From Deltaproteobacteria bacterium (GTDB lineage Bacteria; Myxococcota_A; JAADFL01): a stretch of 64,000 bases of DNA. Position 1 is the stretch's first letter. Every line of letters starts with the position of its first letter. Positions 17,245-36,100 of the stretch are shown here, in pieces. The stretch spans positions 27,548 to 91,547 of the forward strand of contig JAADFL010000212.1 in the NCBI GenBank assembly GCA_013152945.1, read 5' to 3'. Position numbers and translations under genes: made by a program. The notes below the pieces were generated by a model that had not been told where the DNA came from, ran no database searches, and saw only the letters and a program-made list of their open reading frames with translations.

Positions 17245-18947
17245 ATCCAAATGGAAAAAGTTTTCATCATATTTTTTTCAAAAAACAGGTGATTGCCGGT
17301 TCTGTTCTATCGATTGTTTTGCTCTTTGCCCTGGTCCTCACAAGCCGCGACATAGGCTTTGTCCGCGACGAAGGGTATTATTTCAAGGCGTCCGGGGATT
17401 ACCTTGCATGGTTTTCGAGCATAGCCGATCTCATGGGCACCAAGAGATGGAAGCAACCCTTTTCAGACCAGGAGATAACAAGGCAATGGAGTTACAACTC
17501 CGAGCATCCTGCCCTGGTCAAGGAGATGCAGGCATTAACGTTCTGGCTGTTCAAGCGCAAGCTGAACCTGTTCAACAACAGCACATCTTTCAGGCTTGGA
17601 AGTATGTTGTTCTCCATCGTATTGTGCCTCGCCCTGTTCGGACTCGGCAGCCGCATATACAACACCAGGGTGGGTATAATGGCTGTCATCCTGCTCTTTA
17701 CAATGCCCAGGGTCTTTTTTCATGCCCATCTTGCCTGTTTCGATGTGCCGATTACTGCAATGACCGTGCTCGTGGCATATGCGTATTACAGGGCAAGGAA
17801 GGAACCGAGGTGGGTACTGTACACAGGCATCTTCTTCGGCCTGGCAGTGGCAACCAAACATAATGGGTGGTTCCTGTTACCCACGTTGGCCCTTTGGTGG
17901 CTTATCGAGGGGGGGATAATACAAAGAAAAGGAACCGGCCGTTTCAGCCTGCCGCCTGTGCCGCTTGCGCTCATCTCGATGGCGCTGCTCGGTCCAATCA
18001 TCTTCCTGGCCCATTGGCCCTGGCTCTGGCATCATACGTGGGAAAGGATAGTTGGATATTTTTCTTTTCACCTCCACCATGTAAGCTACCCCGTGGAGTA
18101 CTTCGGCAAGATATTATCCAAACCGCCTTTTCCGTTTTCGTTTCCTTTTGTAATGAGCGCCCTTACGGTTCCGGCCCTTACGTTGTTCCTGGCCTTGCTT
18201 GGAGTGTTGTTCGTGTGCATTCGCTTTTTCGAGCATTTCAGTCCAAGACCGCATGCCACGTATTTAATGCGGGAGCAGGAAAGCAAAGAACTCGCCGGCG
18301 GTTTTTTTATTATACTAAACTGTATAGTGCCTTTCCTGATAATCGCTGTTCCGTCCATTCCAATCTTCGGCGGAGTCAAGCACTGGCTGCCTGCAATGCC
18401 ATTCCTCGCCCTGCTTGCGGCAAAAGGTATGGACATGTTGTTTCGCGCGGCCATGGCAATGCTCTCAAGGCCCGGAAAAAAAATGATGGCATCCGCATAT
18501 ATCCTGATGGGGGGGCTGGCCGCCATGCCTGCTGTGATCGGCACATGGTTGTACCTGGACAACGGCACAGCCTTCTACAATGAAATCGCAGGTGGCGCCA
18601 AGGGAGGGGCCGAGCTTGGAATGATGAGGCAATTCTGGGGTTATGCATCCATGCAGGCCATGCCGTGGCTCAACAGGAATGCAACCAAGGGTGCGAGGGT
18701 GCACTTTCACAATACGAACTGGGACAGCGTGAGAATGTATAAAAGAGACAACCTGCTGCGAAAGGACATCAAACAAGCGGACAAGCTGGAAAACGCGGAC
18801 TACTTCCTGTTTCACAACCAAGCGCCTATGTTGGCGGATGAGTACCACTGCTGGTCGAGTTTCAGGACGGAAAAACCGGTCTTTGGCGTATACAAAGAAG
18901 AAGCGCCTATACTTGTGGTATACAAGAGGACCGAAAAACCAAACTAG
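17241..18947 (+). CDS. PMT/ArnT-like (GT-C, GT39/83-type) membrane glycosyltransferase
   Basis: This 568-residue protein has about 10-11 membrane segments. It carries hallmarks of the PMT_2 family: an acidic pair in the first extracytoplasmic loop (FVRDEGYYF, Asp43-Glu44), a conserved SEHPALVKE segment, and FFHAHLACFDVPITAMTVL (the usual R-x-A-x-x-D-x-P-L region). Such enzymes move a sugar from a polyprenyl-phosphate donor to lipid A or protein on the outer face of the inner membrane. The C-terminal periplasmic part (about 430-568) is family-typical. The gene overlaps the preceding one by 4 nt and ends tail to tail, with a 4-nt overlap, against the exporter permease gene. Confidence 0.85.
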   Translation: MNPNGKSFHHIFFKKQVIAGSVLSIVLLFALVLTSRDIGFVRDEGYYFKASGDYLAWFSSIADLMGTKRWKQPFSDQEITRQWSYNSEHPALVKEMQALTFWLFKRKLNLFNNSTSFRLGSMLFSIVLCLALFGLGSRIYNTRVGIMAVILLFTMPRVFFHAHLACFDVPITAMTVLVAYAYYRARKEPRWVLYTGIFFGLAVATKHNGWFLLPTLALWWLIEGGIIQRKGTGRFSLPPVPLALISMALLGPIIFLAHWPWLWHHTWERIVGYFSFHLHHVSYPVEYFGKILSKPPFPFSFPFVMSALTVPALTLFLALLGVLFVCIRFFEHFSPRPHATYLMREQESKELAGGFFIILNCIVPFLIIAVPSIPIFGGVKHWLPAMPFLALLAAKGMDMLFRAAMAMLSRPGKKMMASAYILMGGLAAMPAVIGTWLYLDNGTAFYNEIAGGAKGGAELGMMRQFWGYASMQAMPWLNRNATKGARVHFHNTNWDSVRMYKRDNLLRKDIKQADKLENADYFLFHNQAPMLADEYHCWSSFRTEKPVFGVYKEEAPILVVYKRTEKPN

Positions 18948-19681
18948 TTTCGGGCTTTATTTACAGATATAACGGCAAAAACAATAAAAAGCGGAGCTAA
19001 TCCAGCCAGTATCAGGTAGTTGCCGGCCTCCGGCATTACGCCGAAGGCTGATGCCCGGATAGCGTCGGATGCATGGGTGAGTGGTAGAAACCAGAGAATT
19101 TTTTGAGCCCATTCTGGAAGGTGCTCAACAGGGAAAAAGGTTCCGCCCAAAAATGCCATGGGTGTAATGACGAAACTGGTCATCATTGCTTGGTCTGCAT
19201 GGGACTTTATGAGCATCGCAAGACCTACTGCCAGGGCTGCGAAAACCAGGCTGTTTAGCAGGAAGGCCAGCCAAAAAAGAGGGTTGTACGAGAGAACCAC
19301 GCCGAACAGTGCGCCCAGTACGAGAATTACGCAGCCAGCAAGAAGGGCACGGGTCATTCCGGCCAGCACCTCTCCAAAAACATAGGCTGTATTGCTGATG
19401 GGTGCAGCCTGAAACTCTTCGAAGATATGCCAGTAGAACCGGGCGATGTTGATCTCACTGCCGATGGCAAAGGACTGGGTCATGCTGGTCATGGCTACAA
19501 GCCCGGGAATAAGAAACTCTAAATAGGTATGCCCTTGAACGACAACCCCCTTTCCCATCGCATAGCCGAATGCAATGAGATAAAGCAGTGGTGAAACAGA
19601 CCAAGCGCTTATCAGCTTGAAAAAGCGCCGCCGCAATATCAGCATTTCCCGGAAATAAATTGCAGACCAACCACGTATCAT
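18944..19681 (-). CDS. ABC-2 type exporter permease
   Basis: This 245-residue protein has six hydrophobic segments and the ABC-2 layout seen in NodJ/DrrB-type permeases, including the conserved PMAFLGGTFFPVEHLPEWAQ segment and the LPLTHASDAIR motif near the C-terminus. It would form the membrane part of an exporter with the ATPase encoded just upstream, with which it shares a 4-nt overlap. It is the last gene of the minus-strand run that begins with the TonB receptor, so it may export a product or by-product of that locus. The substrate is unknown. Confidence 0.85.
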   Translation of the reverse strand: MIRGWSAIYFREMLILRRRFFKLISAWSVSPLLYLIAFGYAMGKGVVVQGHTYLEFLIPGLVAMTSMTQSFAIGSEINIARFYWHIFEEFQAAPISNTAYVFGEVLAGMTRALLAGCVILVLGALFGVVLSYNPLFWLAFLLNSLVFAALAVGLAMLIKSHADQAMMTSFVITPMAFLGGTFFPVEHLPEWAQKILWFLPLTHASDAIRASAFGVMPEAGNYLILAGLAPLFIVFAVISVNKARN

Positions 19682-20523
19682 CCGACTTTTTTCCCTGTTT
19701 TGGCAAGAAATGCATCCTCCAGGTTCACCCTGCGCAATGTAAACTCACCCTCATGGACAGAGGCCCATTTCTCGGCCTCCAGCCGTGTTTGAAAATAGAA
19801 AGACCGTATATGCTTTGATTGAAGGGTGTCTATGGCCCATTCACCGATTTGGGACATTAGATGGGCCGGCTTATCCTCGGTCACAATACTTCCTGCATCC
19901 AGGAAGGCTACCCGATCCGCCAAGAATTCAGCCTCCTCGATGTAATGGGTAGTAAGGAAGACCGTGGCTCCTTCACCCTTGACCTTCTTAATAACGCCCC
20001 AAAGGCTCCTCCGAATGGCAGGGTCGAGTCCCACACTCGGTTCGTCCAGGAAAAGGACCTTTGGCCGGTGTAAAAGCGCTCTTGCGATAAGGAGCCTCCG
20101 TTTCTGCCCGCCCGAGAGTCTTTTCACTAAAGTCTTGCGCCGGTCGATCAGCCCTATGTAGTCGAGCAATTCATCGATCCGGAGCTTAATCTCTTGCCTT
20201 GCCATGCCATACAGCCATCCGTGGATAACAAGGTTTTCTTGCACGGAAAGATCTGCATCCAGATTCGTGTGTTGTGGCACAAGGCCGAATTGGGCCTTGT
20301 ATTCCAAGGGATTGTCATTAATAGAATAACCGTTCAGCCGTGCGATTCCATCATCGCTCCGGGTGAGACCGGTTAGTATTCGTATGGTGGTGGTCTTGCC
20401 GGCGCCGTTTGGGCCAAGATAACTGTAAATTTCGCCCGGTTCGACCCTAAAGGAGACACCAGCCAAGGCGGTATGACTGTTGAATTTCTTTTGCAGGTTG
20501 GCTACCTCAATCATGTATGTCAT
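19678..20523 (-). CDS. ABC-2 type exporter ATP-binding protein
   Basis: This 281-residue ATPase has Walker A GPNGAGKTT (residues 37-45), a Q-loop in VPQHTN, the ABC signature LSGGQKRR, Walker B VLFLDEPSVGLDP and the switch His in TTHYIEEAE. The sequence type is the DrrA/NodI/CcmA-like exporter branch, with the C-terminal extension typical of that group. It pairs with the overlapping permease gene. The gene starts 14 nt after the stop of the ChlI-like gene and appears to be in the same transcription unit. Confidence 0.9.
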   Translation of the reverse strand: MTYMIEVANLQKKFNSHTALAGVSFRVEPGEIYSYLGPNGAGKTTTIRILTGLTRSDDGIARLNGYSINDNPLEYKAQFGLVPQHTNLDADLSVQENLVIHGWLYGMARQEIKLRIDELLDYIGLIDRRKTLVKRLSGGQKRRLLIARALLHRPKVLFLDEPSVGLDPAIRRSLWGVIKKVKGEGATVFLTTHYIEEAEFLADRVAFLDAGSIVTEDKPAHLMSQIGEWAIDTLQSKHIRSFYFQTRLEAEKWASVHEGEFTLRRVNLEDAFLAKTGKKVG

Positions 20524-20537
20524 CTCTTAAGTCCGGT

Positions 20538-21587
20538 TCATTCTGCTTCCCGCCTGAATTCCTTGATCTTTTTAGCATTGTCACCGATCTCCATCAGAGG
20601 CCTGCGACGCATTCTGTGGGGCAGGGCCATTTCGGCCGCGGTTTCTATGTCGCTCTTTTCCACCTTTTCGCGTTGAGAGAAAGCGGCCAGGGCCTTGGCC
20701 GCCTTCATCATGATAATGTCTCCACGGTGGCCGTCCACGCCGACCTCGAGGCAAAAGTCAGCAATATTAAAAAGCTGGTCCCGTTCGATCACCACCTTTG
20801 GATAGAGTCTGCGGGCAATCTCGATCCTGTCCGATAGTTCCCTGGATTTTTTGGCCCATCGGGCTGCGAAACCAGTCGAATCCTCATCAAAGGCCACGCG
20901 CCTCTCCATGACCTCAACCCTGTCATTTCGATCCATGATGCCCTCAACATGAACGGAAAGGCCGAACCGATCAAGAAGCTGGGGCCTAAGCTCTCCCTCC
21001 TCCGGGTTCATGGTGCCTACCAGTACGAAGCGTGCCGGGTGCGAGAATGAAACGCCTTCCCGTTCTATGGTATTGAATCCCATGGCAGCGGCATCGAGAA
21101 GGATATCTACGACATGGTCGTCAAGAAGATTCACCTCATCCACGTACAGGATTCCCCTATGGGCTGCGGCCAAAAGCCCCGGTTCGATTTGTTTTTCTCC
21201 TTTCTTTATTGCATGCTCCAGGTTTAATGTGCCTACTACACGGTCTTCAGTAGCGCCGACAGGCAGTTCCACCACCCGAATATGACGACGAAATATACCC
21301 TCTGTTTTGTCGCCGCCAAGCCGTTTTTCCCGGCAATCAAGCCGGAAGCATTCCCGGCAGAGGCCGACACCGTCATCCGGGGCCAACTGGAAGGGGCAGC
21401 CCTCGATCACTTCGATCTCAGGCAGTATATCGGCAAGGGCCCGTACAGCAGTGGATTTCGCTGTCCCTTTTTCCCCTCGAATCAGTACTCCTGAAATGGT
21501 GGGATTAATCAGGTTGAGATATAAAGCCAGTTTCATTTTCTCTTGACCCACGATGGCTGCAAACGGATAAATGCTTTGATGGCTCAT
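20538..21587 (-). CDS. ChlI/BchI-like AAA+ chelatase subunit
   Basis: This 349-residue AAA+ ATPase is of the magnesium/cobalt chelatase I-subunit family. It has Walker A GEKGTAKS (38-45), Walker [15 protein letters not shown], sensor motif [19 protein letters not shown] and the C-terminal helical lid. A four-Cys set (64, 77, 80, 85) sits between Walker A and B; the larger fusion protein encoded next to it has the same arrangement. Such subunits form hexameric rings with a D-type (VWA) partner and drive metal insertion by the large CobN/ChlH-type subunit. The context (fusion protein and CobN upstream) fits this well. Why a second I-type subunit exists here is not clear. Confidence 0.9.
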
Positions 21588-21605
21588 GTTAATCTCCTTG
21601 AAAGA

Positions 21606-23627
21606 TTACTCTTGTTTGACCAGCCCCACCAGGGTATCCGCCTTCAGCCCTTCTGTCTGAAAGTAACGGGCGCCCAGTGCCTCGGCTATCTTTCCGGCCA
21701 TGCCGAAACGGACGAGTCCCTGTTCCTCGGTGTCCACAACAATGAAACGGACCCGCTTATCCGGGCCCAGGTGATGTGCAATTTCTATACACTCGTCCAT
21801 AGGTTTGCCTCTGTTGAGGGAAACATTGCTCCGGCCGTCGGTAATGAGTACCACGATGGGCCTTGATGTTGGATCACGGACGAACTGGGAACGCAAAAGG
21901 TCGCCGGTCTTGACCAGAGCGGAATTGAGCGGGGTCCGGCCGCCAACCGGCAGTTCGGTGAGCATGCGGGCAGCTATGTCGATGGACGAGGTTGGCGGAA
22001 GAGCAAGTTTGGCCTCTGCCTTGTTAAAAGAGATCATAGCCACCTTGTCCCTTTTCTGGTACGCGTCAAGAAGAAGAGACATGATCGCCCCTTTGGTGGC
22101 TACCATTCTCCCGCGTGCTCCCATGGAGCCGCTGGCATCCACTACAAAAAGCAGAAAATTACCCAACCGCCTCTCACGGATCTTTATCCGGATATCCTGG
22201 GGCTCGATGGCAATGGCACAGGCGCTTCGGCGCCCACGCTGATGAGGAGCCGCAGCCCTAAGGGTGGCGTCCAGGGCCACATCTGTTGAACCCCGGGGCA
22301 AGGTGCTCATGACATAGCGTCCATTAAGGCCGTTTACACGGCTGCGGGAACGACGGCCCGAACCGCGGCGGAAAACCCGGTCCTTGGTCATCGAAAAGGG
22401 TTTAACCCTGAAGGTGGCTCCTACCTCGAAAATCTTTTGCAGTGTCTCGGGATTGACCGGAGTTTCAGACTCTTTGTTTTTTTCCGGATTTTCAACCGGC
22501 TTTTCACAGGTGTTGTTGCCCTCATTTTCTCGGGATTTGGGGGCAGGAGCTGGTCCTGACTTTTGCTCCGGCTTTTTATTTTTTTCTTGGTCAGTTTCTT
22601 CCGGCCGGTTCCGATCATGGGGCCGGCCGTGATTCTCCTCTTCTTCTTTGTCCTGCGCTTGAGGGGGCGAAGCTTCCCGTTGCCTGTGGAGCAGGACCAT
22701 ATGCGCCACCCGTAGAATATCCTCCTTTGTCACCTCGGTCCGTTCCGAAAAGGCTGTAAGTGCCCGGGCCGCCTGCTCCATGACAAGATCGGCCCGGTGG
22801 CCGGCCACCCGGGCTTCAGCGCATACCTCGCCTATCAAAACCCGCAGGTGGCCCGAGATTAGCACCTTGGACAAAAGTAGGCGGGCGCGCAATATGCGTT
22901 CTCTCAAAGTACGTACCTCACTATCGAACCGATTGACATAATCTGAAGGATTTTCATCAAAGGCATCACGCCGTTCCATGGTAATAACCCGCGCTCTGCG
23001 ATCTTTTTCCGCCTTTACCTCAACACAGAGTCCGAACCGGTCCAGGAACTGCGGACGAATTTCTCCTTCCTCGGGATTCATGGTGCCGATGAGAATAAAA
23101 TGTGCAGGATGGGAAAAGGATACCCCCTCGCGCTCGATAGTGTTGACACCGGATGCAGCCGCCGAAAGTATAATATCCACTATGTGATCGTCCAAAAGGT
23201 TGACCTCATCCACGTAAAGTATGCCATGGTTGCAACGGGCAAGGAGTCCGGGAAGGATTTTTCGTTGGCCCGTGCGAATGGTCTTTTCAAAATCGATCCC
23301 TCCAACCACGCGATCCTCGGTGGCGTTCAGGGGCAAGGTCACTACCTGCACAGGCCGTCGAACCGCAGGTCTTCTTCCTTCACAAAGCCTGCAGCCCTTG
23401 CAGAATCCATCCGTTTCTTCAGTCCCCAGGGAGAAGAAACATCCTTCAAGGACTTCGATCTCCGGTAACAAGGCGGCCAGGGCCCGCACTGCAGTGGACT
23501 TGGCCGTGCCCTTTTCCCCACGAATCAACACTCCCTCCACCCGAGGATTAACGGCATTCAAGAGCAGCGCAAGTTTCAGTTCTTCCTGGCCGACGATTGC
23601 AGGGAAGGGGAATGTATCAATGCTCAT
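21606..23627 (-). CDS. ChlI-ChlD fusion: AAA+ ATPase with VWA domain (chelatase D-type subunit)
   Basis: This is a 673-residue fusion. Residues 1-330 are a complete AAA+ I-type domain with Walker A GEKGTAKS (37-44), [24 protein letters not shown] and a four-Cys set (63, 76, 79, 82). Residues 335-415 are a very polar Glu/Lys/Pro/Asn linker. The C-terminal domain is a von Willebrand A fold with a complete MIDAS: Asp497-x-Ser499-x-Ser501, Thr565 and Asp597. It matches the bacterial Mg-chelatase/cobaltochelatase D subunits that bind the I ring and the large subunit. Its start overlaps the end of cobN-like by 11 nt, which indicates coupled expression. Confidence 0.9.
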   Translation of the reverse strand: MSIDTFPFPAIVGQEELKLALLLNAVNPRVEGVLIRGEKGTAKSTAVRALAALLPEIEVLEGCFFSLGTEETDGFCKGCRLCEGRRPAVRRPVQVVTLPLNATEDRVVGGIDFEKTIRTGQRKILPGLLARCNHGILYVDEVNLLDDHIVDIILSAAASGVNTIEREGVSFSHPAHFILIGTMNPEEGEIRPQFLDRFGLCVEVKAEKDRRARVITMERRDAFDENPSDYVNRFDSEVRTLRERILRARLLLSKVLISGHLRVLIGEVCAEARVAGHRADLVMEQAARALTAFSERTEVTKEDILRVAHMVLLHRQREASPPQAQDKEEEENHGRPHDRNRPEETDQEKNKKPEQKSGPAPAPKSRENEGNNTCEKPVENPEKNKESETPVNPETLQKIFEVGATFRVKPFSMTKDRVFRRGSGRRSRSRVNGLNGRYVMSTLPRGSTDVALDATLRAAAPHQRGRRSACAIAIEPQDIRIKIRERRLGNFLLFVVDASGSMGARGRMVATKGAIMSLLLDAYQKRDKVAMISFNKAEAKLALPPTSSIDIAARMLTELPVGGRTPLNSALVKTGDLLRSQFVRDPTSRPIVVLITDGRSNVSLNRGKPMDECIEIAHHLGPDKRVRFIVVDTEEQGLVRFGMAGKIAEALGARYFQTEGLKADTLVGLVKQE

Positions 23628-26600
23628 GTTTCAACCCCAACCCGCCCAGTACCTTTCCTATCTCTACCTTCCAGTCCTCAATGTCATCTGCGGTCATGAC
23701 ATCCACGCTGCCGCCCTGGAACTCACCGGTGACCTCACCCATGGTGTCTTCTATGGAACCTTCCACCTCCAGGTAGGCTTCTTTCAATTGTTCCAGGCGT
23801 TCCTCGTCCGGTTGCCAGATGCCCCGGCTTGCGGCCTCCAGAAGTCTCCGGCCAATCTCCTCCAGTGCCCAGGGATTGACCTTCTTGAACCACCTTCTCA
23901 TCTCTTCGTTCAATACAAAGGTTTCCGTGATCTCATCGAGTATCCAATTGTCCACTTCTCCCGTGGTTGCAGCAAAGCCGTATACCCGGCCGATTCGCTT
24001 GGAAAGATCGCCGGCACCTTTATACCCGTGCTCTTTCATCCCCTTGATGTATTTGGGGTTGAGCAGTTTTGCCCGGACAACCCGCCGCATCTCATCAGCA
24101 AAGTCAGTGACACCGACCCGGGCAGGGTCACGGGTGTCACCATAATAATTGCGGGGTCTTTTGCCGGAAAGGGTCTTGGCCGCTACGCTCATCCCGCCGT
24201 AATTACTGAAGTAACCGCAACAACTAAGAAAATCTCCTTCGTCGGATATATGCTTGTCGAAAATCGCCTCCACGCGCCGCAGATTCGCCACCAATTCCTT
24301 GTGGGCTTGAACGCCGTAAGCTGCATCTCCTGCACCCCCACCGTATGCATACCCGTTCCAGAAAAAGTATACATCGGAGATGTCGGCCTCTGTCTTCCAT
24401 GCAGATGCATAGACCGCAAGATCTACGCCGGCCCTGTAGACACCTGGTTGTGCGCAGAAGATCCTGAAGGAAAGCCTCCTGAATGTTTCGGGATCGGATA
24501 ATTTCGCGTTTTCCTCGCGGGCCTGTTCCAGTATATGCTTCCGGATGAAATTTTCCTCTGGTTTCTCCTCCAGCACGGCTACAGCTTGGATAGCCTGATC
24601 AACGTATTTCACAGAGCCGGGAAAGCAATCGCGGGTTATGCCTGATACCCGGATATTCACGTCGATTCGGGGTCTGCCAAGATCGACAGGCGGGATTATC
24701 TCTATACCGTCCACCTGGCCGTTACCCTTCCATCGCGGACGCACACCGAGAAGATGGAGAATCTGGCCGATCTGCTCTCCATCGGCCCGCATGATGTCGG
24801 ATGCCAGCCAGACCATGCCGACGCTCTCGGGATATTGTTCCTCATCCTTTAGAAAGCGTTCCAGCAGGGCTTCAGCCAATCGAACGCCTACCCGGTAGGC
24901 GGCCCTGGTGGGAATGCGGGTGGGATCCACATTGTAGAAGTTTCGGCCGGTAGGCAGGATATCGTACCGGCCACGGGAGAGATACCCGGAAGGACCGGCC
25001 GGCACGTAGCCGCCGTCCATTGCACTCAAAAGAGAATCTATCTCCCGGGATTCGGTAAGCCGCTGATCAATCTCCGTGACAAGGCCGGCAAAGCGCTCAA
25101 AACGTTCCCTTGTGCAAGCCGGTTCCAGGTGGCCCCGGGCCAGCCCCCTGAAGAGATTGTCATGTGAAAATCCTCGTATCAGGCTGTGGATGAGATCCAC
25201 GGCCTGCCGGTCGGCTAAAAAGAGCAGATCACTGTACGTCTTTCCGTTTTTGCCCCGGTCGGCTGGATAATCCAGGGCCTTGTCCATGTCCTCTCCCCAG
25301 AGGTCGAACACAAGGCGCCTGGTATTGAGTTCATTGTTGCTGTCGAATCGAAGGATGGTGTTGATGGTCTCGGCGCGGTTCATGTCCTCCGGCACCTCGC
25401 CGAAGACATGCATACCAATCCGGGTTTGGCTGTTCTTGATCCCTGAAATAATTTGGTGGCATTGCTTGACCACATCGCTGAAATTCGCCGGATTATTGGC
25501 TTCCACCTCCCCGGTGAGATGTGTTTTTTCCATGACCTCGCGAATCAGGTGCTCCAACTGATGGGCCCTTGCAGGGTCTGTATTCGATGCCCGGTTGTAC
25601 TCCTCCAGGAGTTCTTCAAGCTCTTCAAAACCGCCATAGGTGTCGGCGGTATTCATCACGGCCTGAAGGTGGTCCACCAGGACTGCGTAACTGCGCCGCT
25701 TCGCTATCACTCCCTCGGCAGGATTATCTGCATTATAGATATAGAGGTGAGGCACGGCGCCGATGGCGATATCGGGCCAGCAGTCGGATGAAAGCCCTGC
25801 TCCTTTACCCGGGAGCCACTCCAGGTTACCGTGGGTGCCAACGTGAATAATGACGTCAGCGCCGAAAACCTTGTCCATGTACATGTACGTAGCGATGTAC
25901 TGATGCGGCGGGGGGATGTCCGGATCATGCAGAATTTTGCACACACGGCCGTCGCAGCGGGCCCCGGCGCAGCCGCGCTTGGGTTGCATAATAATATTAA
26001 TGTTGCCGAAATTCAGGCCTGTGATGACAAGCTTCCCATCATAGACCATGCTCGGCGGCACACCATTCATCTTCCTGCCCGGAGGCTCTCCCCAGGCATG
26101 AACGATCTGTCTCTTGGCTTTTTGGGGCAAGGAATCAAACCACTCCCGGTAAATAGCGTTGTCCAGCAATGCAAGGTGACCCCCCTTGCTGACAATCTCG
26201 TCCACAGTGGTCCAGCGGAACTCGGCTATGGCCTTTCTCGAAAGAATGGTCTGCATCAGAGACTCCCCGGACACTGGGAGTCTCTCGACCCGGTAACCGG
26301 CTTCCTTCATGCTCCTCATGATTTGCACTATCGACTCGCCGGAATCAAGGCCTGCCGCCCCTCCGACCCCGGCCTCGAGGCCTGCGCACTCGTTTTTATG
26401 TAATACAAAGACTGCCTTGCGGTCGCAAATCGGCTTTTCCGCCAAGCGGACGAAGCGCGCAATGCGTTCAGCAATGTGTTCCACCCGATCCTTGATCACT
26501 TCCCGCAACTCAAAGATTGATCCGGTCTTTTCGTCCGTGAGTTTCCTGCTGCAGGCCATGAGGATCGGTTCGATGTTGCCCTCGAACTCGGGCATGGCGA

Positions 26601-27537
26601 TGCCGAATGTCACGTCCATGGTAAGACCCTGCGGATCCTCCTCCCACTCGTCCACGGTCTTGGAATAGGAAACGACGGGTTTGAACACCGGCACGTTGAG
26701 TTCCCTGAAAAAGTTCACTGACTGGGCTGCTACTCCCGTCTCTGAGATGTCGGACCGGGCCTCTCGCCCGAGAAAGAAAAATTGGAGATTGACCAATGCA
26801 TCGATTCCAACAGTTCCATCCGGACGGATGAAGAACCTGCGACAACTCTCGATTGGCCCAAGAGACCCTGCCTCCTGATCGGGCGTCCCGTGGGAAAATA
26901 CGGGAAGCACGTCGAAACCCCTGGCCTCAAGCGCCTCAATGAGGGAGCGTTCCAAAGAAGCGTCGGTATTGGTAAAACTATGGCGCGAAAATAGAAGCCC
27001 TACCGTGTGGGCCCGCCCGGACGGATGCGCCTTGCGGTATTCTTCCACAGATGCGTACACCTTCTGATCCGGCGGGTGCAATATCCCCTGCCACGGCATG
27101 GGCAGGGGGTCCTGCACCGGGATTTCCGGATCCACTTGGTGGGCTAGGAATTCAAGCAGCCTCCGGTAGTTCTCTTTTCCGCCCTCTGCAAGATACGTGT
27201 AAGCCCTGGCGCAGATGGAAATATCTACAGTGGAATTTCGTCCCCAGTCGCTCGGGTCAAAAGACGTGGTGACGATAACCTTGTCCGGTGCGATCTCATC
27301 CAGGCGGGCACTGACCTCGGGCCAGAAACCATCCGAGGTCCGGTAAAGTAAAATGATATGGGCCTTTTCCGCAGCAACCAGGAAGTCGTCCACCAGATCC
27401 ATATCGTTTTCCAGCTCTTTTTGGGAGAAAATATCAAGTTTGATATCAAAGCTTTCCCGGGTCGCCTCCAAAAAAACCGGTACATATGAGCCCCACATGA
27501 TAGATGCTATTCGGATTGGACGATTAACTTTGATCAA
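23617..27537 (-). CDS. CobN/BchH/HmuS-family large chelatase subunit
   Basis: This is a 1306-residue protein of the CobN/magnesium-chelatase H superfamily. Family motifs are visible: HVGTHGNLEWLPGKGAGLS in the centre, the PPxRxY-like PTRAAYRVG segment after TGRNFYNVDP, and NGYAYGGG and SNYGGMSVA further on. Length is normal for CobN (about 1250-1400). These proteins bind a tetrapyrrole and insert cobalt, magnesium or nickel; a related branch, HmuS of Bacteroidetes, acts in anaerobic haem use. The gene starts at a TTG inside a TTGA overlap with the importer ATPase gene and is followed by the ChlI/D-type partner genes. The link to a TonB/BtuFCD-like importer suggests handling of an imported metal or tetrapyrrole. 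The substrate cannot be read from sequence. Confidence 0.9.
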   Translation of the reverse strand: MIKVNRPIRIASIMWGSYVPVFLEATRESFDIKLDIFSQKELENDMDLVDDFLVAAEKAHIILLYRTSDGFWPEVSARLDEIAPDKVIVTTSFDPSDWGRNSTVDISICARAYTYLAEGGKENYRRLLEFLAHQVDPEIPVQDPLPMPWQGILHPPDQKVYASVEEYRKAHPSGRAHTVGLLFSRHSFTNTDASLERSLIEALEARGFDVLPVFSHGTPDQEAGSLGPIESCRRFFIRPDGTVGIDALVNLQFFFLGREARSDISETGVAAQSVNFFRELNVPVFKPVVSYSKTVDEWEEDPQGLTMDVTFGIAMPEFEGNIEPILMACSRKLTDEKTGSIFELREVIKDRVEHIAERIARFVRLAEKPICDRKAVFVLHKNECAGLEAGVGGAAGLDSGESIVQIMRSMKEAGYRVERLPVSGESLMQTILSRKAIAEFRWTTVDEIVSKGGHLALLDNAIYREWFDSLPQKAKRQIVHAWGEPPGRKMNGVPPSMVYDGKLVITGLNFGNINIIMQPKRGCAGARCDGRVCKILHDPDIPPPHQYIATYMYMDKVFGADVIIHVGTHGNLEWLPGKGAGLSSDCWPDIAIGAVPHLYIYNADNPAEGVIAKRRSYAVLVDHLQAVMNTADTYGGFEELEELLEEYNRASNTDPARAHQLEHLIREVMEKTHLTGEVEANNPANFSDVVKQCHQIISGIKNSQTRIGMHVFGEVPEDMNRAETINTILRFDSNNELNTRRLVFDLWGEDMDKALDYPADRGKNGKTYSDLLFLADRQAVDLIHSLIRGFSHDNLFRGLARGHLEPACTRERFERFAGLVTEIDQRLTESREIDSLLSAMDGGYVPAGPSGYLSRGRYDILPTGRNFYNVDPTRIPTRAAYRVGVRLAEALLERFLKDEEQYPESVGMVWLASDIMRADGEQIGQILHLLGVRPRWKGNGQVDGIEIIPPVDLGRPRIDVNIRVSGITRDCFPGSVKYVDQAIQAVAVLEEKPEENFIRKHILEQAREENAKLSDPETFRRLSFRIFCAQPGVYRAGVDLAVYASAWKTEADISDVYFFWNGYAYGGGAGDAAYGVQAHKELVANLRRVEAIFDKHISDEGDFLSCCGYFSNYGGMSVAAKTLSGKRPRNYYGDTRDPARVGVTDFADEMRRVVRAKLLNPKYIKGMKEHGYKGAGDLSKRIGRVYGFAATTGEVDNWILDEITETFVLNEEMRRWFKKVNPWALEEIGRRLLEAASRGIWQPDEERLEQLKEAYLEVEGSIEDTMGEVTGEFQGGSVDVMTADDIEDWKVEIGKVLGGLGLKHEH

Positions 27538-28364
27538 TTTTTCCTCCCGGACGCGCTTAAACGGTTCGGCAGCCGGCCTGGTTTATCCAGTTCTTGTTCC
27601 CCGGAACAACACAGGACTTGAACGTTGAGATATCCGTTGTCCCGGGTGACAATGGATTCCACGCCGTACACGTCACGAATCTTCGCCGGGGTTACAATCT
27701 CGGCCGGCACACCTGCGCTGAAAATTTTTCCGTGGTGAAGTAAAATAATTCTGTCCGAAAACCTTGCGGCCAGATTCAGGTCATGCATAGCCATCATCAC
27801 GCCTATCCCCTTGCCTTTCGCCAGTGCGGCTACAGTTTCCAGGAGTTCCATTTGATGGCGTAAATCAAGGCCGGAATTAGGCTCATCGAGCAAGAGATAA
27901 CGTGTATCCTGGATCATGGTTCTGGCAAGCAGAACCTTCTGCACCTGACCGGAGCTCAACTGATCCATATCCCTCATGGACAACTCGGACAGTTCCATCT
28001 CTTCGATTATTGTTTCCACCTTTTCCAGATCCTTCAGGGACGGTCTCCAGGCAAAATAAGGTCTTCGCCCGGAAAGGATTGTATCAAACACAGTGCCCGG
28101 AAAGCGGAAAAACATGGATTGCGGCATATAGGCCAATTGCTTTGCGATTTCTCTCCGCGGCATGCCAAGAGCGTCTCTGCCGTCCAAGTGTACAGTTCCA
28201 AGTGTAGGCTTGAGTATACCGGAGATACATTTCAGCAATGTGGTCTTTCCGGCCCCATTGGGCCCGACTATACTTACAACTCCGCCCTTTTCCACGCTTG
28301 CCCTGACAGCGGCCAGCACCTTGTTGCCGTTATATTCGAAAAAGATTCCCCTTGCCTCAAGCAT
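27534..28364 (-). CDS. FecE/BtuD-family importer ATPase
   Basis: This 276-residue ABC ATPase has Walker A GPNGAGKT (34-41), Q-loop MPQSMF, signature LSSGQVQKVLLAR, Walker B YLLLDEPNSGLD and switch His in MHDLNLAA. It belongs to the iron-siderophore/haem/cobalamin importer class (BtuD, FhuC, HmuV). I chose the ATG at 28364, which overlaps the permease stop (ATGA); an upstream extension of the frame is antisense-like and has no domain. The C-terminus has a Cys-Cys pair and a basic tail. It energises the BtuC-like permease encoded just upstream. Confidence 0.9.
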   Translation of the reverse strand: MLEARGIFFEYNGNKVLAAVRASVEKGGVVSIVGPNGAGKTTLLKCISGILKPTLGTVHLDGRDALGMPRREIAKQLAYMPQSMFFRFPGTVFDTILSGRRPYFAWRPSLKDLEKVETIIEEMELSELSMRDMDQLSSGQVQKVLLARTMIQDTRYLLLDEPNSGLDLRHQMELLETVAALAKGKGIGVMMAMHDLNLAARFSDRIILLHHGKIFSAGVPAEIVTPAKIRDVYGVESIVTRDNGYLNVQVLCCSGEQELDKPGRLPNRLSASGRKN

Positions 28365-29398
28365 CACCAATACTCCCTGGTTCGTTTCATTAAAAGGAAA
28401 ACAAAGAACGGCACGCCGATAAAAGAAGTCACGATTCCGATGGGTATCACCAGGGGCGTCCAGAGGGTCCTGCCTGCCGTGTCCGCAGCCACAAGAATAA
28501 TCCCTCCCACCAGCCCGGAACCTGCCAGCAGGAACCTGTGGTCGTTTCCAATGATCATGCGCGTAATGTGTGGGGCTACAAGCCCAATGAACCCGATGAC
28601 CCCGGTGAAGCTGATACAGCCGGCGGTTATCAGAGACGCCGCCGCCACACTCCATATCCTCAATCGATCAGGGTTGACCCCCAATGCCATGGCAGACTCG
28701 TCGCCGTAGGCCAGGAGATTAAAATCCCACGCACTACGTAGAAGCAGCGGAAATGGAGCAAGAATCATGACGGCAGCCAATCCGATTTCAGGCCATCCTA
28801 CCCTGGAAAGACTGCCGAAAAACCAAAATACGATTTCATAAACCTGTTGCATGGTTCCTGTGTATTGGAAAAGGGAAGTAAGTGATGAAAACAGAAACAT
28901 CAATGCTATACCCGACAGGATCATGGTCTCGGATGAGGCCTTTTTCAACTTGGCTATTAGAATCATGACAGCCGCTGATAACAGGGAAAAAAGAAATGCA
29001 CCGCCGGCCACTCCATAGAGGAGACTTCCAGTGCCCAAAAAAATAATGGCAGTTACGGCTCCGAACCCTGCGGCCGATCCCACGCCAAGCGTAAAAGGTG
29101 AAGCGAGCGGGTTGCAAAGAACGACTTGAAATATCGTACCGGCCACCCCAAGCCCGAAGCCCACAAGTACGGCCATTAGAATACGGGGAAATCTCAGCAT
29201 CCAGATGATACCAAAGCTGCGGCCCGTATCTTTGAATAAAGATGCAAGCACTGTCCCAAGCCCAATGCCGGACGCACCCACACATAGACCGATTGCCATG
29301 ACAGTAAGAAGCACGAGGCACAGGGAGACCAGAAAAAAAATTTTTCTTTTGATGTCGGCTTCATAGCTTATAAAGACGGCTTCAACACCAGTACTCAT
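28364..29398 (-). CDS. FecCD/BtuC-family importer permease
   Basis: This 344-residue membrane protein has about ten hydrophobic segments and the FecCD signature features LRFPRILMAVLVGFGLGVAG, NPLASPFTLGVGSAAGFGA and FIGLVAPHITRMIIGNDHR. The family imports ferric siderophores, haem or corrinoids. I chose the ATG at 29398 because it overlaps the stop of the binding-protein gene (ATGA) and gives the usual family length; the frame stays open further upstream but without homology-like sequence. Confidence 0.92.
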   Translation of the reverse strand: MSTGVEAVFISYEADIKRKIFFLVSLCLVLLTVMAIGLCVGASGIGLGTVLASLFKDTGRSFGIIWMLRFPRILMAVLVGFGLGVAGTIFQVVLCNPLASPFTLGVGSAAGFGAVTAIIFLGTGSLLYGVAGGAFLFSLLSAAVMILIAKLKKASSETMILSGIALMFLFSSLTSLFQYTGTMQQVYEIVFWFFGSLSRVGWPEIGLAAVMILAPFPLLLRSAWDFNLLAYGDESAMALGVNPDRLRIWSVAAASLITAGCISFTGVIGFIGLVAPHITRMIIGNDHRFLLAGSGLVGGIILVAADTAGRTLWTPLVIPIGIVTSFIGVPFFVFLLMKRTREYW

Positions 29399-30459
29399 TT
29401 GCCGGTCTCCTGAAAACCGCTTGATACATAAACACCGCGGTAGGATATACCCTGAAAAATCTCGATGTATTCCCTGTGCCATGCCTTTGGATCCAGGTCG
29501 GGAAAAAGTTTTGGATAAAACCACCGTGCCAGGTAAGCCATGCCGATGATAGCACGTGGCCCGGTCCAAATGGCGCTGTCCATTACATGGACCCTTCCGT
29601 AAGCTACGGCCGCTATGTGTTGCCAGGCCGGGCGCTTCATGATTTCCTCTTTTTGCCTGTTGAAAACCGCAGGGGTCTTGAGGGAGTACCCGCCACCCCA
29701 GGCTGCCGCTTTTACTATTACGTCCGGGTTTTGGGAAACCACCCACTCAGGTGTTACCCGGGGGTACGGGATAGAAAATCCGGAGGCGATATTTCTCCCA
29801 CCAGCGAGCGTGCACATATCGTGGCCCCCGGATCCCGGCGCTACTGTGTGGTAGTCCGTATAGTTTTCGATATAGACTGAAGTCCTTTTTTTCACCAGCC
29901 CAAGCCTTTTTATTAGTTTGTCCAAGTGAAGTTTGTGCCAATCACAAAAACGCCTGGCCTCCTTTTCCCGCCCCAGAAGACGCCCCATGGTCATGACCTC
30001 GCGTTCCAGCGTGTCCTCCTTGTAGAAATCGAGGCGAAGGACCTTGACACCGAACGGGGCCATCTTTTTCTCCAGTTCCGGTCCGGGGTTGCGGCTGTAT
30101 GCAACGACTATGTCGGGATGCAGGGCGACAATGGCCTCGATGTTTGCCTCACGCCAACTGCCTACCCTGGATTTTTGGGCCAGGTCGCCCCAGAAATCCC
30201 GGTTCCGCACGATCTCGGAAAAGACCCCGACAACCAGATCCTGGGCCTTCAGGGTTCGAAGAACCTCCAGAACATCCGAGTTCAGAGCCACTATCCGCTT
30301 GATGGGTAGAGAGACCTCGATTTTTCTACCCATGGAGTCCAAAACTGTTATGGAAGTACCAAGTGCGGTTTTTCCCTGCAACAGGATAGACATTGCAACC
30401 AGCATCCGACAAAAGTGTAAAAGTCTTTTCTGGGAAACAATAGTGTGCATGTCAATCAT
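29395..30459 (-). CDS. periplasmic metal-chelate/tetrapyrrole-binding protein (BtuF/FecB-like)
   Basis: This 354-residue protein has a signal peptide (hydrophobic region about 13-33) and the two-lobed class III binding-protein pattern: TVLDSMGRKIEVSLPIKRIVALNSD at the start of lobe one, LHPDIVVAY, then TLAGGRNIA and VVSQNPDVIVKAAAW in lobe two. The family delivers siderophores, haem or cobalamin to FecCD-type permeases. Its stop overlaps the permease start, and it follows the TonB receptor gene after 14 nt. No ligand-specific residue can be named with confidence. Confidence 0.88.
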   Translation of the reverse strand: MIDMHTIVSQKRLLHFCRMLVAMSILLQGKTALGTSITVLDSMGRKIEVSLPIKRIVALNSDVLEVLRTLKAQDLVVGVFSEIVRNRDFWGDLAQKSRVGSWREANIEAIVALHPDIVVAYSRNPGPELEKKMAPFGVKVLRLDFYKEDTLEREVMTMGRLLGREKEARRFCDWHKLHLDKLIKRLGLVKKRTSVYIENYTDYHTVAPGSGGHDMCTLAGGRNIASGFSIPYPRVTPEWVVSQNPDVIVKAAAWGGGYSLKTPAVFNRQKEEIMKRPAWQHIAAVAYGRVHVMDSAIWTGPRAIIGMAYLARWFYPKLFPDLDPKAWHREYIEIFQGISYRGVYVSSGFQETGK

Positions 30460-30473
30460 GTTGCATGGGCTTC

Positions 30474-32747
30474 CTAGTACCTCGCCATGGCGTTTAGATA
30501 CACTGCACGACCCGGCGAGCGATAGTACGAGTAGTAATGTTTGTCGAGAATATTATTTGCCAGCACGCCGACCCTGAAATGTTTGCCTATTTGGTAATGC
30601 AATGCGGCGTCCAGCAGGAAATGCTCGTCGAAACTTCCGTACACCCCGCTGTAAGTATCCCTGTTCTCGTCGTCGCGGTATGCCTTACCTATCCAACTTC
30701 CCCGCAGCCTAAAAGTCAGGCCTTCAAATTTCATTCCCAACCAGCCGAAATATATATTTTTGGGCATATAAGTGGTGATTTTTCCTTCTGTTTGCGGCCT
30801 TGCGGAATTCGATGTAATTCGAGGATACTGATAGGTAAGCCCGGCTCCAAGTTCAAGCCATTTTGTAACTCGTTCGCTCAATTTCAGTTCCAGGCCTTCC
30901 ACCCTTGCCTCTGCGGCATTTAATTTCTGTTTTGTCTTTTCGTCGATGCTGGCGGTGTAAATCATGTTGTCAACAAAGCTCATGAACCAAACGATATTTG
31001 ACTTGAAGCCGATTTGTCTGATCCTGGATACCAGGCCTGCTTCCCAGCTCCATGTCCTCTCCGGTTTGAGTTTTGGGTTCGGCTTGTACGTGGTGCCGTA
31101 AAATGACCAGGTTTTGTAAAGTTCGTAAACGGTCGGCGGTCTGAAAGCTCTGCCTGCAGCAAAATTAAAACCGAGGAATTTCCATGGGTGGTAACTAACT
31201 CCGATCCTGGGATTGATGGCTGTTTCATTGTTTGCAGGATAGGTATCCTTAAGCCCGGCCTGGACATCTTCGCTTTTGCCATCATAGTTCCTCCATATGT
31301 CCAACCTGGCTCCTGCCGAGACAATGATCTTGTCATGCAGGATGCTCCATTGATCGAGCAGGAACAGGCCCCCATTGAATGCCTTGCCCTGGGTGGATGT
31401 GAGCATACCGTTCCTGGTACCTGTATCCCGCCAGTTTCCAAGTGATTCAGACACACTCGCGGCTGCTGGGAAAAAAAGGGAAAGCCCTCCTGCCAGATTG
31501 TTTCCGGCAAACAGGGCGGCATTAAGCTGCAACTCGGAATATACATTGAGGGACTGCGTGAAGTTGTACTTGCCCGGACCTCCGAAATTATCAGCTCCGC
31601 TTTTCGGCATTGAGTACCATCCCTCACGGTGCACGGCTCCCAACTTTGCAGACAGTGAAAGCCAGTTTGTGATTGTTGCTTTTGTTCGAATCCTTGCAAT
31701 TCTGCATATGTTTTCTGAAAAGTTCTCCATCATGTTATAAGGACTAAGACTGAAATAATGCGTATCATCGGCCGTAATTTTTCCCGAGTATATGGGTTCT
31801 CCGGAATCTGTAAAAAGGTATGTATGGGCATCGGAATAACCATAGTTGAAACGGCCCTCCGTGTATCCTATATTCAGGTCCAGGAATTTCCATGGATGAA
31901 AGTACAGGTCTATGTTCGCCCCCCAGACATTGTCGTGATTATTTCCCTTATCTCCCACCAGATAGGCGGGATCCCCTTTGCTGGTAGTAGTCTTGTTCCA
32001 TCCCGAGGCTGCAATTTCACCTGAACCTGTTTTCTCGGTTCTTACAACTTCTGCAGTCGGGTAACCACCGATGTACGTCCAATGGGCGGAAACCTTGAGG
32101 GAGAACCAATCCGTGAGCTTTTCACCATAGCTTCCGGCTAATCGCCCGGTAGAAAAGCTCCCGGCCGTTGTATCAAGTTCGATCTTCCTCTTTACAGGCT
32201 CGAACGAGCGAATATTTATCACCCCGCCCATGGCATATCCGCCGTAAGCCGGGGATGCGGGCCCGCTTAACAATTCAATCCTGTCCGCCATATCAGGTGA
32301 AATAGCCCACCATGGTACGCCTCCGCTGTAGCCGCCGTTCATGGGTATGCCATTTATCATGACCAGATTCTGTTTATTCGAGCCAAAGCCCCTGATGAAT
32401 ACACCTGCCAGTGAATCCATGGGCTTTGCGTGCCTTACCCATACTCCTGTCAAATTCGAGAAGGCCTCGTCCAGAGTCTGCACATTCCAGTCTTGCCAAT
32501 CCCGTTTATTAAGGACCTGAACCTCGAAAGGTATCTTTTCAGGGTCGCTGTTGATCCGTGTCGCCATAACCCTGGTTTCATAAATCAAAGCCTTAGGTTT
32601 TTTTTTCTTTTTATCAGTTCTCGCTTTTTCATTATTGGTTTTCCCTCGATTTTCCGATGTATCCTTCTCATGAGCCCACACCGGTTGCGACAGCGAAATC
32701 AACGCTATGGAACACAGCAGTAAGACCAACTTGATTGAACCAGGCAT
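30474..32747 (-). CDS. TonB-dependent outer-membrane receptor
   Basis: This 757-residue receptor has a signal peptide cleaved near Trp-Ala25 and then a Lys-rich stretch. A TonB-box-like ALIYETRVMATR segment leads into the plug domain (IRGFGSNKQNLVMINGIPM, GPASPAYGGYAMGGVINI). A 22-strand-type barrel follows, ending in Ala-Arg-Tyr. The barrel has an FRPPTVYELY...NPKLKPE pair resembling the FRAP/NPNL boxes of haem receptors, but similar boxes occur in BtuB-type receptors. It is the first gene of the importer-chelatase run. It starts at an ATG behind AAAGGAGG and has a promoter candidate about 55-85 nt upstream. Confidence 0.9.
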   Translation of the reverse strand: MPGSIKLVLLLCSIALISLSQPVWAHEKDTSENRGKTNNEKARTDKKKKKPKALIYETRVMATRINSDPEKIPFEVQVLNKRDWQDWNVQTLDEAFSNLTGVWVRHAKPMDSLAGVFIRGFGSNKQNLVMINGIPMNGGYSGGVPWWAISPDMADRIELLSGPASPAYGGYAMGGVINIRSFEPVKRKIELDTTAGSFSTGRLAGSYGEKLTDWFSLKVSAHWTYIGGYPTAEVVRTEKTGSGEIAASGWNKTTTSKGDPAYLVGDKGNNHDNVWGANIDLYFHPWKFLDLNIGYTEGRFNYGYSDAHTYLFTDSGEPIYSGKITADDTHYFSLSPYNMMENFSENICRIARIRTKATITNWLSLSAKLGAVHREGWYSMPKSGADNFGGPGKYNFTQSLNVYSELQLNAALFAGNNLAGGLSLFFPAAASVSESLGNWRDTGTRNGMLTSTQGKAFNGGLFLLDQWSILHDKIIVSAGARLDIWRNYDGKSEDVQAGLKDTYPANNETAINPRIGVSYHPWKFLGFNFAAGRAFRPPTVYELYKTWSFYGTTYKPNPKLKPERTWSWEAGLVSRIRQIGFKSNIVWFMSFVDNMIYTASIDEKTKQKLNAAEARVEGLELKLSERVTKWLELGAGLTYQYPRITSNSARPQTEGKITTYMPKNIYFGWLGMKFEGLTFRLRGSWIGKAYRDDENRDTYSGVYGSFDEHFLLDAALHYQIGKHFRVGVLANNILDKHYYSYYRSPGRAVYLNAMARY

Positions 32748-32803
32748 CGTTTACCTCCTTTGGACTGGACACTAGGTAGCACTAATATCCAAAAAGTAAT
32801 CGC

Positions 32804-32833
32804 ACAGTAGCATATTTTTAAATATCGTGGCAA
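32804..32833 (-). promoter_or_regulatory. promoter candidate of TonB-receptor operon with inverted repeat in spacer
   Basis: On the minus strand TTGCCA (32833-32828) and TACTGT (32809-32804), the latter preceded by an extended TGC, are spaced by 18 bp. The spacer holds the inverted repeat ATATTT-N2-AAATAT (32812-32825), a possible operator for a metal- or haem-responsive repressor. The ATG lies about 57 nt downstream. No B12-box of a cobalamin riboswitch was seen in the leader. Confidence 0.45.
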
Positions 32834-32844
32834 CAATATTTTTG

Positions 32845-32869
32845 GCCGGGCCAAGGCCGGCTTTTTTTT
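32845..32869 (+). terminator. plus-oriented hairpin followed by eight T
   Basis: GCCGG (32845-32849) and CCGGC (32857-32861) can pair across a 7-nt loop and are followed by a run of T on the plus strand. Both flanking genes are on the minus strand, so in the expected direction the hairpin lacks a U tract. It could stop antisense transcripts, or it may be chance. Confidence 0.3.
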
Positions 32870-33011
32870 AAGGCCTTTGCCGAGAGGCATTTTGAACCCG
32901 CATGCTTTGGTAAAGCTTGCACGGGGATGAAGGCAGGGGCAATCTTTCAAACAAAAAATATTATGGGTAAGGACTCTAGAGAGCCGGGAACCTTATCCGT
33001 TCCAGGTAATC

Positions 33012-33662
33012 TTACTTTTTCTCATTCCCTTGTTCCATGCCTTGATCCAATAAATCCACCTGTGGATCCGGTGGCTCGGGAAGAAACGTCAAGCCCTTGA
33101 CCAGGACATAGGCTGCCTGGAGATAGGAGGTGGGGCAAAGAGGAAAACATTCCTTGCAGCTCTCACACTCCCTGGCTGCAATCTCCGGTATGAAGCTGAT
33201 TTCTTTCCTTATTCCCCTGTCTATGAATCCGATGGCGTTCTTTTTTTTCACTTCTGCACAATACCGCACGCACAGACCGCAATGAACGCAAAAAGACGCC
33301 TGTTGCTGAAACCTGTCCTTTTCAGCTCCGTATTCCCTTGCCATGTCCTGAATTATCGGTGCATCCGGAGCACGGGCGAGTAATAATTCCAGGAGAGTCT
33401 TGCGAATTTTATCTATCTTCTTGGATCTGGTCCTTACCTTGAGGTTTTTTTCAGCCTGATACACGCATGATACCACGAGCTTGGTCCGGCCGTTCTTTTC
33501 CGCCTCGACAAGGCAGAGCCTGCATGCGCCGTATGGTTTGAGCTTCTCATGGTAACAAAGTGTAGGTATGGATATGTCGGCCCTTTTCGCCGCCTCCAAG
33601 AGAGTATCACCTTTCTTTGCAATGACTTCCTTTCCATCGATCTGCATGTGGATGTCACTCAT
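33012..33662 (-). CDS. bamI: BamI-like NuoG-type iron-sulfur protein
   Basis: This 216-residue protein corresponds to the N-terminal part of NuoG/HydA-type subunits. It has a [2Fe-2S] ferredoxin domain with Cys36, 47, 50 and 66, then two [4Fe-4S] sites (Cys125, 128, 131, 135 and Cys166, 169, 172, 176). There is no molybdopterin domain, as expected for an electron-transfer subunit. It overlaps the end of the NuoF-like gene by 8 nt and closes the bam-type operon. In the class II benzoyl-CoA reductase complex this subunit would pass electrons between the NADH-linked module and the Hdr module. The order and content match bamI, but assignment rests on context. Confidence 0.8.
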   Translation of the reverse strand: MSDIHMQIDGKEVIAKKGDTLLEAAKRADISIPTLCYHEKLKPYGACRLCLVEAEKNGRTKLVVSCVYQAEKNLKVRTRSKKIDKIRKTLLELLLARAPDAPIIQDMAREYGAEKDRFQQQASFCVHCGLCVRYCAEVKKKNAIGFIDRGIRKEISFIPEIAARECESCKECFPLCPTSYLQAAYVLVKGLTFLPEPPDPQVDLLDQGMEQGNEKK

Positions 33663-35583: not shown

Positions 35584-35592
35584 GATCTCCCT

Positions 35593-36045
35593 CTACTCGT
35601 AGCTTTTCAGCAAGTTTGGAACATCGGCGGACGACAACTTGCCATGGGCCTTTCCATCGATTTCAACCACTGGGCCGAGTGCACAGCATCCAAGGCAATT
35701 TACTGTCTCGAGGCTGAACTTGAGATCAGAGTCGGTCTCTCCGGCCTTTATTCCGGTTTCTTCCTGTATCGTTTCAAGGATACGCGGCGCACCACGCACA
35801 TGGCAGGCCGTTCCCATGCACACGTTTATTTCATGGCGGCCCTTCGGAACCAGGCTGAAGGCCTTGTAAAAAGTAGAAATATTACGGATGCGCGTCATGG
35901 GAACATTCAGCTTTTCAGCAACCCTCTCCAGGGCCTTGCCCGGAAGCCAATGGTTCTTTGATTGAATTTCCAGCATAACCTGTATCAGGGCGCTTGCCTC
36001 GCCATGGTGTCTGTCAATGATTTGATTGATTTCTTCGATATCCAT
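35593..36045 (-). CDS. bamG: BamG-like NuoE-type [2Fe-2S] subunit
   Basis: This 150-residue protein has the NuoE/HydC layout: an N-terminal helical bundle and a thioredoxin-like domain with the [2Fe-2S] ligands Cys76, Cys81 (CMGTACH), Cys117 and Cys121 (CLGCC). NuoE subunits pair with NuoF to oxidise or reduce NAD(H). The gene lies between the MvhD-like and NuoF-like genes, which is the bamF-G-H order. The gap to bamF (55 bp) is the largest inside the operon but shows no terminator. Confidence 0.88.
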   Translation of the reverse strand: MDIEEINQIIDRHHGEASALIQVMLEIQSKNHWLPGKALERVAEKLNVPMTRIRNISTFYKAFSLVPKGRHEINVCMGTACHVRGAPRILETIQEETGIKAGETDSDLKFSLETVNCLGCCALGPVVEIDGKAHGKLSSADVPNLLKSYE

Positions 36046-36100
36046 TTCCAGTTTACCGGTCCCATCCTTTCTTCAAACACACATCGCCGGGCCGGACAAT

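Follow-up and report, generated by a model that had tools for sequence, protein, structure and literature searches.

A cysteine-rich CobN-like chelatase linked to import and export genes in a candidate metal-salvage locus of a Deltaproteobacteria bacterium

We analysed a 64,000-nt stretch of Deltaproteobacteria bacterium contig JAADFL010000212.1 (the window) and focused on a minus-strand run of nine open reading frames at positions 18944-32747, which encodes a TonB-dependent receptor, a FecBCD-type importer, a CobN-like chelatase with its ChlI-ChlD motor and an ABC-2 (ATP-binding cassette type 2) exporter pair. Profile searches matched each frame to its family far above chance. The listed starts of the importer ATPase and the FecCD permease lie too early; with the plausible starts 28364 and 29398, neighbouring genes throughout the locus either overlap or are separated by no more than 18 nt. 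The nine genes form one operon-like unit, in agreement with the first-pass annotation, which had described nine closely packed minus-strand genes and an absence of corrin and porphyrin biosynthesis genes; none lies in the locus. The features are as follows.

18944-19681, minus strand: ABC-2 exporter permease, DrrB/NodJ-like, 245 amino acids (aa); family match
19678-20523, minus strand: ABC-2 exporter ATPase, DrrA/NodI-like, 281 aa; family match
20538-21587, minus strand: ChlI-type AAA+ motor subunit, 349 aa; family match, intact Walker A/B
21606-23627, minus strand: ChlD-type AAA+/VWA motor subunit, 673 aa; family match, Walker A/B and metal-ion-dependent adhesion site (MIDAS)
23617-27537, minus strand: CobN-like class I chelatase large subunit of the Cys-rich clade, 1306 aa, no membrane anchor; PF02514 match, tree, motifs
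27534-28364, minus strand: FecE/BtuD/HmuV-type ABC ATPase, 276 aa from the inferred start; family match
28364-29398, minus strand: FecCD/BtuC-type inner-membrane permease, 344 aa from the inferred start 29398; family match
29395-30459, minus strand: periplasmic binding protein, FecB/BtuF-type, PF01497, 354 aa; family match, predicted fold
30474-32747, minus strand: TonB-dependent outer-membrane receptor, 757 aa; family match
25939-25971, minus strand: CobN loop I cysteines C523-x4-C528-x4-C533, residues 523-533; alignment
24217-24222, minus strand: CobN cysteine pair C1106, C1107 at the position of HmuS LSLDHxxEFMGG; alignment
32748-33011, minus strand: intergenic stretch upstream of the nine-gene locus; riboswitch and metal-box scans negative

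The chelatase large subunit matches PF02514 with 1198 bits and scores above the cut-off of the NCBI equivalog NF004646 (1535 vs 1468 bits). We placed it in a quick tree of the C-terminal half, supported by the Shimodaira-Hasegawa-like approximate likelihood ratio test (SH-aLRT) and not by bootstrap, where it falls in a separate clade of 31 sampled rows (SH-aLRT 99). The sister clade (SH-aLRT 99) unites the CobNs of Mycobacterium tuberculosis (Mtb) and Brucella with plasmid-borne biosynthetic CobNs and leaves the window protein outside; ChlH likewise forms its own clade (SH-aLRT 99) without it, and HmuS is a long branch outside whose placement is unsure. The predicted model has the six-domain fold of class I chelatases, with a Z-score of 48 to late cobaltochelatase CobN (Mtb 7c6o, Brucella 9uk9) and a predicted local distance difference test score below 50 at loop I. 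Judged from the alignment, the window CobN is collinear with Mtb CobN, with no large insertion and nothing like the methionine-rich insertion of HmuS. The cavity motifs of tetrapyrrole chelatases found throughout the superfamily, such as HxGTHG, are fully kept, and the head domain is too divergent to be safely aligned to the HmuS head and neck with their Met-79/His-254 haem site. No hydrophobic 19-mer that could serve as a membrane anchor was found in the window CobN or across 73 retrieved CobNs, and the best reading from sequence is that CobNs of this type are soluble and cytoplasmic.

What sets the clade apart is a set of six cysteines, C384, C523, C528, C533, C1106 and C1107, which are 91-100% conserved within it and 0% conserved in 12 other CobN/ChlH/HmuS-like references. 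Conservation of C523, C528 and C533 is in part a product of selection, the search having been biased to the Cys loop; C384, C1106 and C1107 lie outside the search patterns. In alignment, C533 corresponds to HmuS Phe-502, H537 to His-506 and H569 to His-538, and the C1106-C1107 pair falls at the Leu-Asp that precedes HmuS His-1209. The HmuS motif LSLDHxxEFMGG is replaced by CCGYFSNYGGM in the window CobN and by CCC in most clade members, and in most members beyond the window's own subclade a third cysteine takes the place of His-1209. Because His-538, His-1209 and loop I surround the substrate cavity according to the HmuS authors (PMC12583661), the clade cysteines probably line or flank this cavity.

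Walker A and B motifs are intact in ChlI and ChlD, the VWA domain of ChlD retains its MIDAS motif, and ChlD scores just above the TIGR02442 ('putative cobaltochelatase') cut-off. Both motor subunits (window 20538-23627) carry a C-x12-C-x2-C-x2/4-C insertion after Walker A, formed in ChlI by C64, C77, C80 and C85; C64, C77 and C85 are invariant among 27 relatives. Since a ChlI-ChlD fusion of Spirosoma, encoded in a corrin gene cluster, shows a similar pattern, we do not count the ChlI cysteines as clade-specific.

We scanned 84,980 species genomes with conserved stretches around loop I. The query, a set of aligned loop I chimeras designed to steer the search toward the Cys loop, yielded 421 loci, and we retained the best 80; a scan with the window CobN alone as query found no relatives. 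Among the best 80 of the 421, 20 sulfate-reducer-type loci are distinct at 74-85% identity in the loop I region, and those of archaea, Bacillota, Thermodesulfobacteria and others reach at most 70%. A locus from a Desulfobacteraceae metagenome-assembled genome (L051) has identical nine-gene content and order, and L058, L064, L067, L069 and L070 carry the full set with minor rearrangements. Gene content was counted at loci with at least 5 kb on either side of CobN, grouped by record title and NCBI phylum, and the counts, being tblastn matches to the window proteins, are lower bounds. At 19 Gram-negative-type bacterial loci we found the TonB receptor in 16, the binding protein in 15, BtuC or D in 16, ChlI or D in 17 and the ABC-2 permease in 10. 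The corresponding figures for receptor, binding protein, Chl subunits and ABC-2 permease are 0, 7, 4 and 2 at eight archaeal loci, and 0, 4, 3 and 3 at four Bacillota loci. Related sets that lack the TonB receptor occur in Bacillota and in methanogens and anaerobic methanotrophic (ANME) archaea. The absence of the receptor from the loci of hosts without an outer membrane is consistent with a genuine uptake system. Because the set is conserved elsewhere, the nine-gene cluster is not a chance arrangement.

Neighbour clustering revealed no recurrent extra enzyme apart from ExbB/ExbD and a PF07670 (Gate domain) membrane protein, which adjoins CobN in 17 loci, many of them archaeal (e.g. L072:5008-5937, L115:12510-13454), and is a possible metal or ring transporter. 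Alkanophagales archaea (L071:16009-19773, L073:7739-11455) encode, within a few kb of the Cys-type CobN, a second CobN paralogue that has an HmuS-like LDHxxEFxGG motif and an adjoining BtuF-type gene. The one match to the Cys-loop pattern among viral contigs was a chance hit with no CobN there.

The host genome (4.84 Mb, 94% complete) encodes a single CobN. We detected no CbiC, CbiD, CbiK or CobS in it, and control genomes were positive as expected. It also encodes 26 B12-binding domains, FeoB and, on another contig, a second BtuFCD-like importer, about 3 kb from a TonB-receptor-like gene. With 26 B12-binding domains and none of these four corrin genes, the host therefore appears to be a corrinoid user unable to make corrins, and because of the second importer the window locus is not the sole candidate for B12 uptake. 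Only 13 of 377 genomes of the host phylum have a CobN-like match, and the other 12 lack this gene arrangement. Several genomes of the phylum (L034-L039) carry BchH/ChlH-type genes that group with ChlH, which suggests that phototrophy genes are present in the phylum.

Among the relatives, CbiC is encoded away from the CobN locus in 24 of 33, and the gene module is also present in genomes without CbiC or CbiD. The tested CbiC-bearing sulfate reducers own CbiK above cut-off; some Bacillota and archaeal relatives give weak CbiK-family matches, probably of CbiX type, and one genome gives none. No Rfam family, riboswitches included, matched anywhere in the 64-kb window, and no cobalamin riboswitch was found there or at seven close sulfate-reducer loci. 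In Desulfosporosinus (L083:18888-19071) a strong cobalamin riboswitch (107.9 bits) lies far downstream of the CobN locus, ahead of different genes. A role of the locus in cobalamin biosynthesis is very unlikely, because the host lacks CbiC, CbiD, CbiK and CobS and the tested corrin-making sulfate-reducer relatives own CbiK. The checks proposed by the first-pass annotation lead the same way: CobN does not group with biosynthetic cobaltochelatases, and it is the sole CobN of the host, but in a genome from which these four genes are absent.

We favour, with a probability of about 0.48, the interpretation that the locus is a metal-salvage route in which a soluble, cytoplasmic, ATP-driven de-chelatase receives its substrate from the importer and passes its product to the exporter. 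As family knowledge and conserved linkage suggest, a metal complex (probably a metallo-tetrapyrrole) would enter the cytoplasm through the TonB receptor and the FecBCD-type importer. The CobN of the Cys-rich clade, powered by the ChlI-ChlD AAA+ motor, would then remove the metal, the reverse of what biosynthetic chelatases do; the clade cysteines may hold the leaving metal, or an iron-sulfur cluster that keeps the centre reduced, and the ABC-2 pair would export the metal-free ring. A cytoplasmic de-chelatase would need both an importer and an exporter, which the hmu operon lacks. Three points lead us to prefer ATP-driven removal in the cytoplasm: this importer/exporter logic, the absence of a corrin pathway and a cavity rich in cysteines. 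The substrate may plausibly be haem. The core of the import-strip-export scheme of the first-pass annotation, in which an importer and an exporter work with an ATP-driven chelatase of class I, is supported, since the set recurs in unrelated anaerobes; its metallo-tetrapyrrole substrate, metal removal and export of the stripped ring are parts that we infer. More tentatively, the clade may represent a class of ATP-powered de-chelatases of strictly anaerobic bacteria and archaea, in which a cysteine-lined cavity with metal-accepting thiolates or an iron-sulfur cluster would extract Fe, Ni or Co from imported metallo-tetrapyrroles or from a recycled tetrapyrrole metallophore, the free ring then being exported.

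Several observations weigh against this interpretation. The closest characterised CobN relatives by tree insert metal, HmuS de-chelation needs NADH and not ATP (PMC12583661), and sequence alone fixes no substrate, metal or direction. Within the stretch covered, the ABC-2 permease is present at only 10 of 19 Gram-negative-type and 2 of 8 archaeal loci. The predicted fold of the binding protein is nearest to YiuA, a binder of iron complexes (Z 33.7), with CeuE also among the nearest; it gives Z about 28-34 to ferric-siderophore and Ni/iron binders as compared with about 22-26 (best 25.9) to haem binders and 22.4 to BtuF, although similarity of fold does not determine the ligand. Binding proteins differ strongly between loci with 65-76% identical CobN (L051-L130), as though the chelatase were retained and its ligand exchanged. 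Methanothrix loci have several binding proteins each. The closest subfamily models of the TonB receptor are haem and siderophore types, none of them above cut-off, and BtuF-type motifs of the binding protein are not diagnostic.

The same observations bear on four other explanations. The ABC-2 pair could export a metal-free ligand, tetrapyrrole or other, whose metal complex is re-imported and stripped by the chelatase for the next round. Such a recyclable metallophore cycle would account for the recurrence of exporter and importer together with the chelatase in bacteria and archaea, and for the likeness of the binding protein to siderophore binders; we regard it as unlikely, since no ligand biosynthesis gene lies within or adjoining the locus and the exporter was not found at every locus. 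That a repurposed chelatase extracts metal from a non-tetrapyrrole complex (e.g. a metallophore of catecholate or peptide type) is a reading that draws on the nearness of the binding protein to YiuA and CeuE and on the diversity of binding proteins across loci; the full retention of tetrapyrrole cavity motifs such as HxGTHG makes it improbable.

Two further explanations keep the chelatase working in the direction of metal insertion. If a metal-free or wrongly metalated ring, or the metal itself, is imported, CobN-ChlID could metalate or exchange the metal of a salvaged macrocycle. ATP-dependent metal insertion with a motor of this type is what ChlH and the sister clade carry out, and it might suit a host that uses B12-type proteins and cannot make corrins. 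We consider this quite unlikely: the host has another BtuFCD-like importer, the cavity of the clade is remodelled and Cys-rich, and the host lacks even CobS, so that incomplete corrinoids could not be finished. De novo cobalt chelation for cobalamin, with the transporter supplying cobalt, takes the annotation at face value and was the rival raised by the first-pass annotation. The scores of CobN and ChlD above the cobaltochelatase cut-offs are its support; it is largely refuted by the absence of CbiC, CbiD, CbiK and CobS from the host, by the position of CobN outside the biosynthetic clade, by the lack of a cobalamin riboswitch in the window and at the close loci, and by the CbiK of the tested corrin-making sulfate-reducer relatives.

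The locus is flanked by a convergent glycosyltransferase-type cluster on one side and a NuoEF/HdrA-like operon on the other. The latter, upstream at window 33012-39923, encodes NuoE/NuoF-like, ferredoxin-type and HdrA-like proteins, a composition that may indicate a flavin-based electron-bifurcating complex. In the stretch 32748-33011 we found no convincing box for Fur, DtxR, Zur or MntR, and scans for these boxes upstream of 18 loci gave no consistent signal. We rejected base composition as a mark of foreign origin, the G+C content of the locus being 0.53 vs 0.48-0.50 in the flanks.

The Cys-rich CobN is a variant within a known chelatase superfamily; we found no description of the clade or of the nine-gene set in open-access papers. 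At least 421 loci in public genomes encode a Cys-type CobN and are prone to annotation as 'cobaltochelatase', which the evidence contradicts for the window locus and its close relatives. Metal stripping from tetrapyrroles, if that is what the system does, would make it the ATP-driven equivalent of HmuS. It would also give sulfate reducers, methanogens and ANME archaea a way to acquire metals in sulfide, a setting poor in free metals. The Cys set and the conserved gene set make the function of archaeal CobN-like clusters a testable question; the HmuS authors describe CobN-annotated archaeal clusters as unassigned and of unclear function (PMC12583661).

The window system shares its superfamily, six-domain fold and adjacent AAA+/VWA motor genes with the late cobaltochelatases CobN-CobS-CobT and CobN-ChlID. 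Unlike them, its CobN lies in a separate clade with six extra conserved cysteines, its host has no corrin pathway and the locus is linked to import and export genes. The three-part architecture with a ChlI/ChlD-type motor is also that of ChlH-ChlI-ChlD magnesium chelatase, from whose ChlH clade the window CobN is separate. CobN-like proteins are likewise present in another anaerobe, Methanosarcina barkeri, where a proteome study found two 'BtuS' proteins to change in abundance with iron and sulfur source and suggested haem-iron salvage (PMC10846266). The cobN-exbB-exbD-tonB cluster of Geobacter lovleyi pSZ77, which has no CobS/CobT and whose function its authors left open, combines CobN and TonB-type uptake as the window does, with no ChlI/ChlD motor or ABC importer reported (PMC3403914). 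On Runella slithyformis pRUNSL01 (L048, ~5500-15100), an HmuS-like CobN with an N-terminal anchor, a TonB receptor, an ExbB-type protein and DUF2149 sit within a gene cluster for [NiFe]-hydrogenase maturation, which suggests a relative of the hmu system with a link to nickel.

The haem de-chelatase HmuS/BtuS of Bacteroidota (PMC12583661, PMC6460266) resembles the window CobN in superfamily, in its place beside TonB-type uptake, in its anaerobic setting, in standing outside corrin synthesis and in His-538, kept as H569. Rocha et al. (PMC6460266), citing Rodionov et al. 2003, list BtuS as a third protein of CobN type with a predicted role in metalloporphyrin salvage. HmuS is membrane-anchored and is drawn as acting before the inner membrane (PMC12583661). 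The window CobN, unlike HmuS, has no membrane anchors, LSLDHxxEFMGG motif or Met-rich insertion and sits on a different tree branch; we rejected its identity as HmuS, the active-site motif, the anchors and the hmu operon all being absent. The hmu operon has no ABC importer or exporter (PMC12583661); where hmuYRSTUV has HmuTUV, the window locus has an ATP motor, an ABC importer and an exporter.

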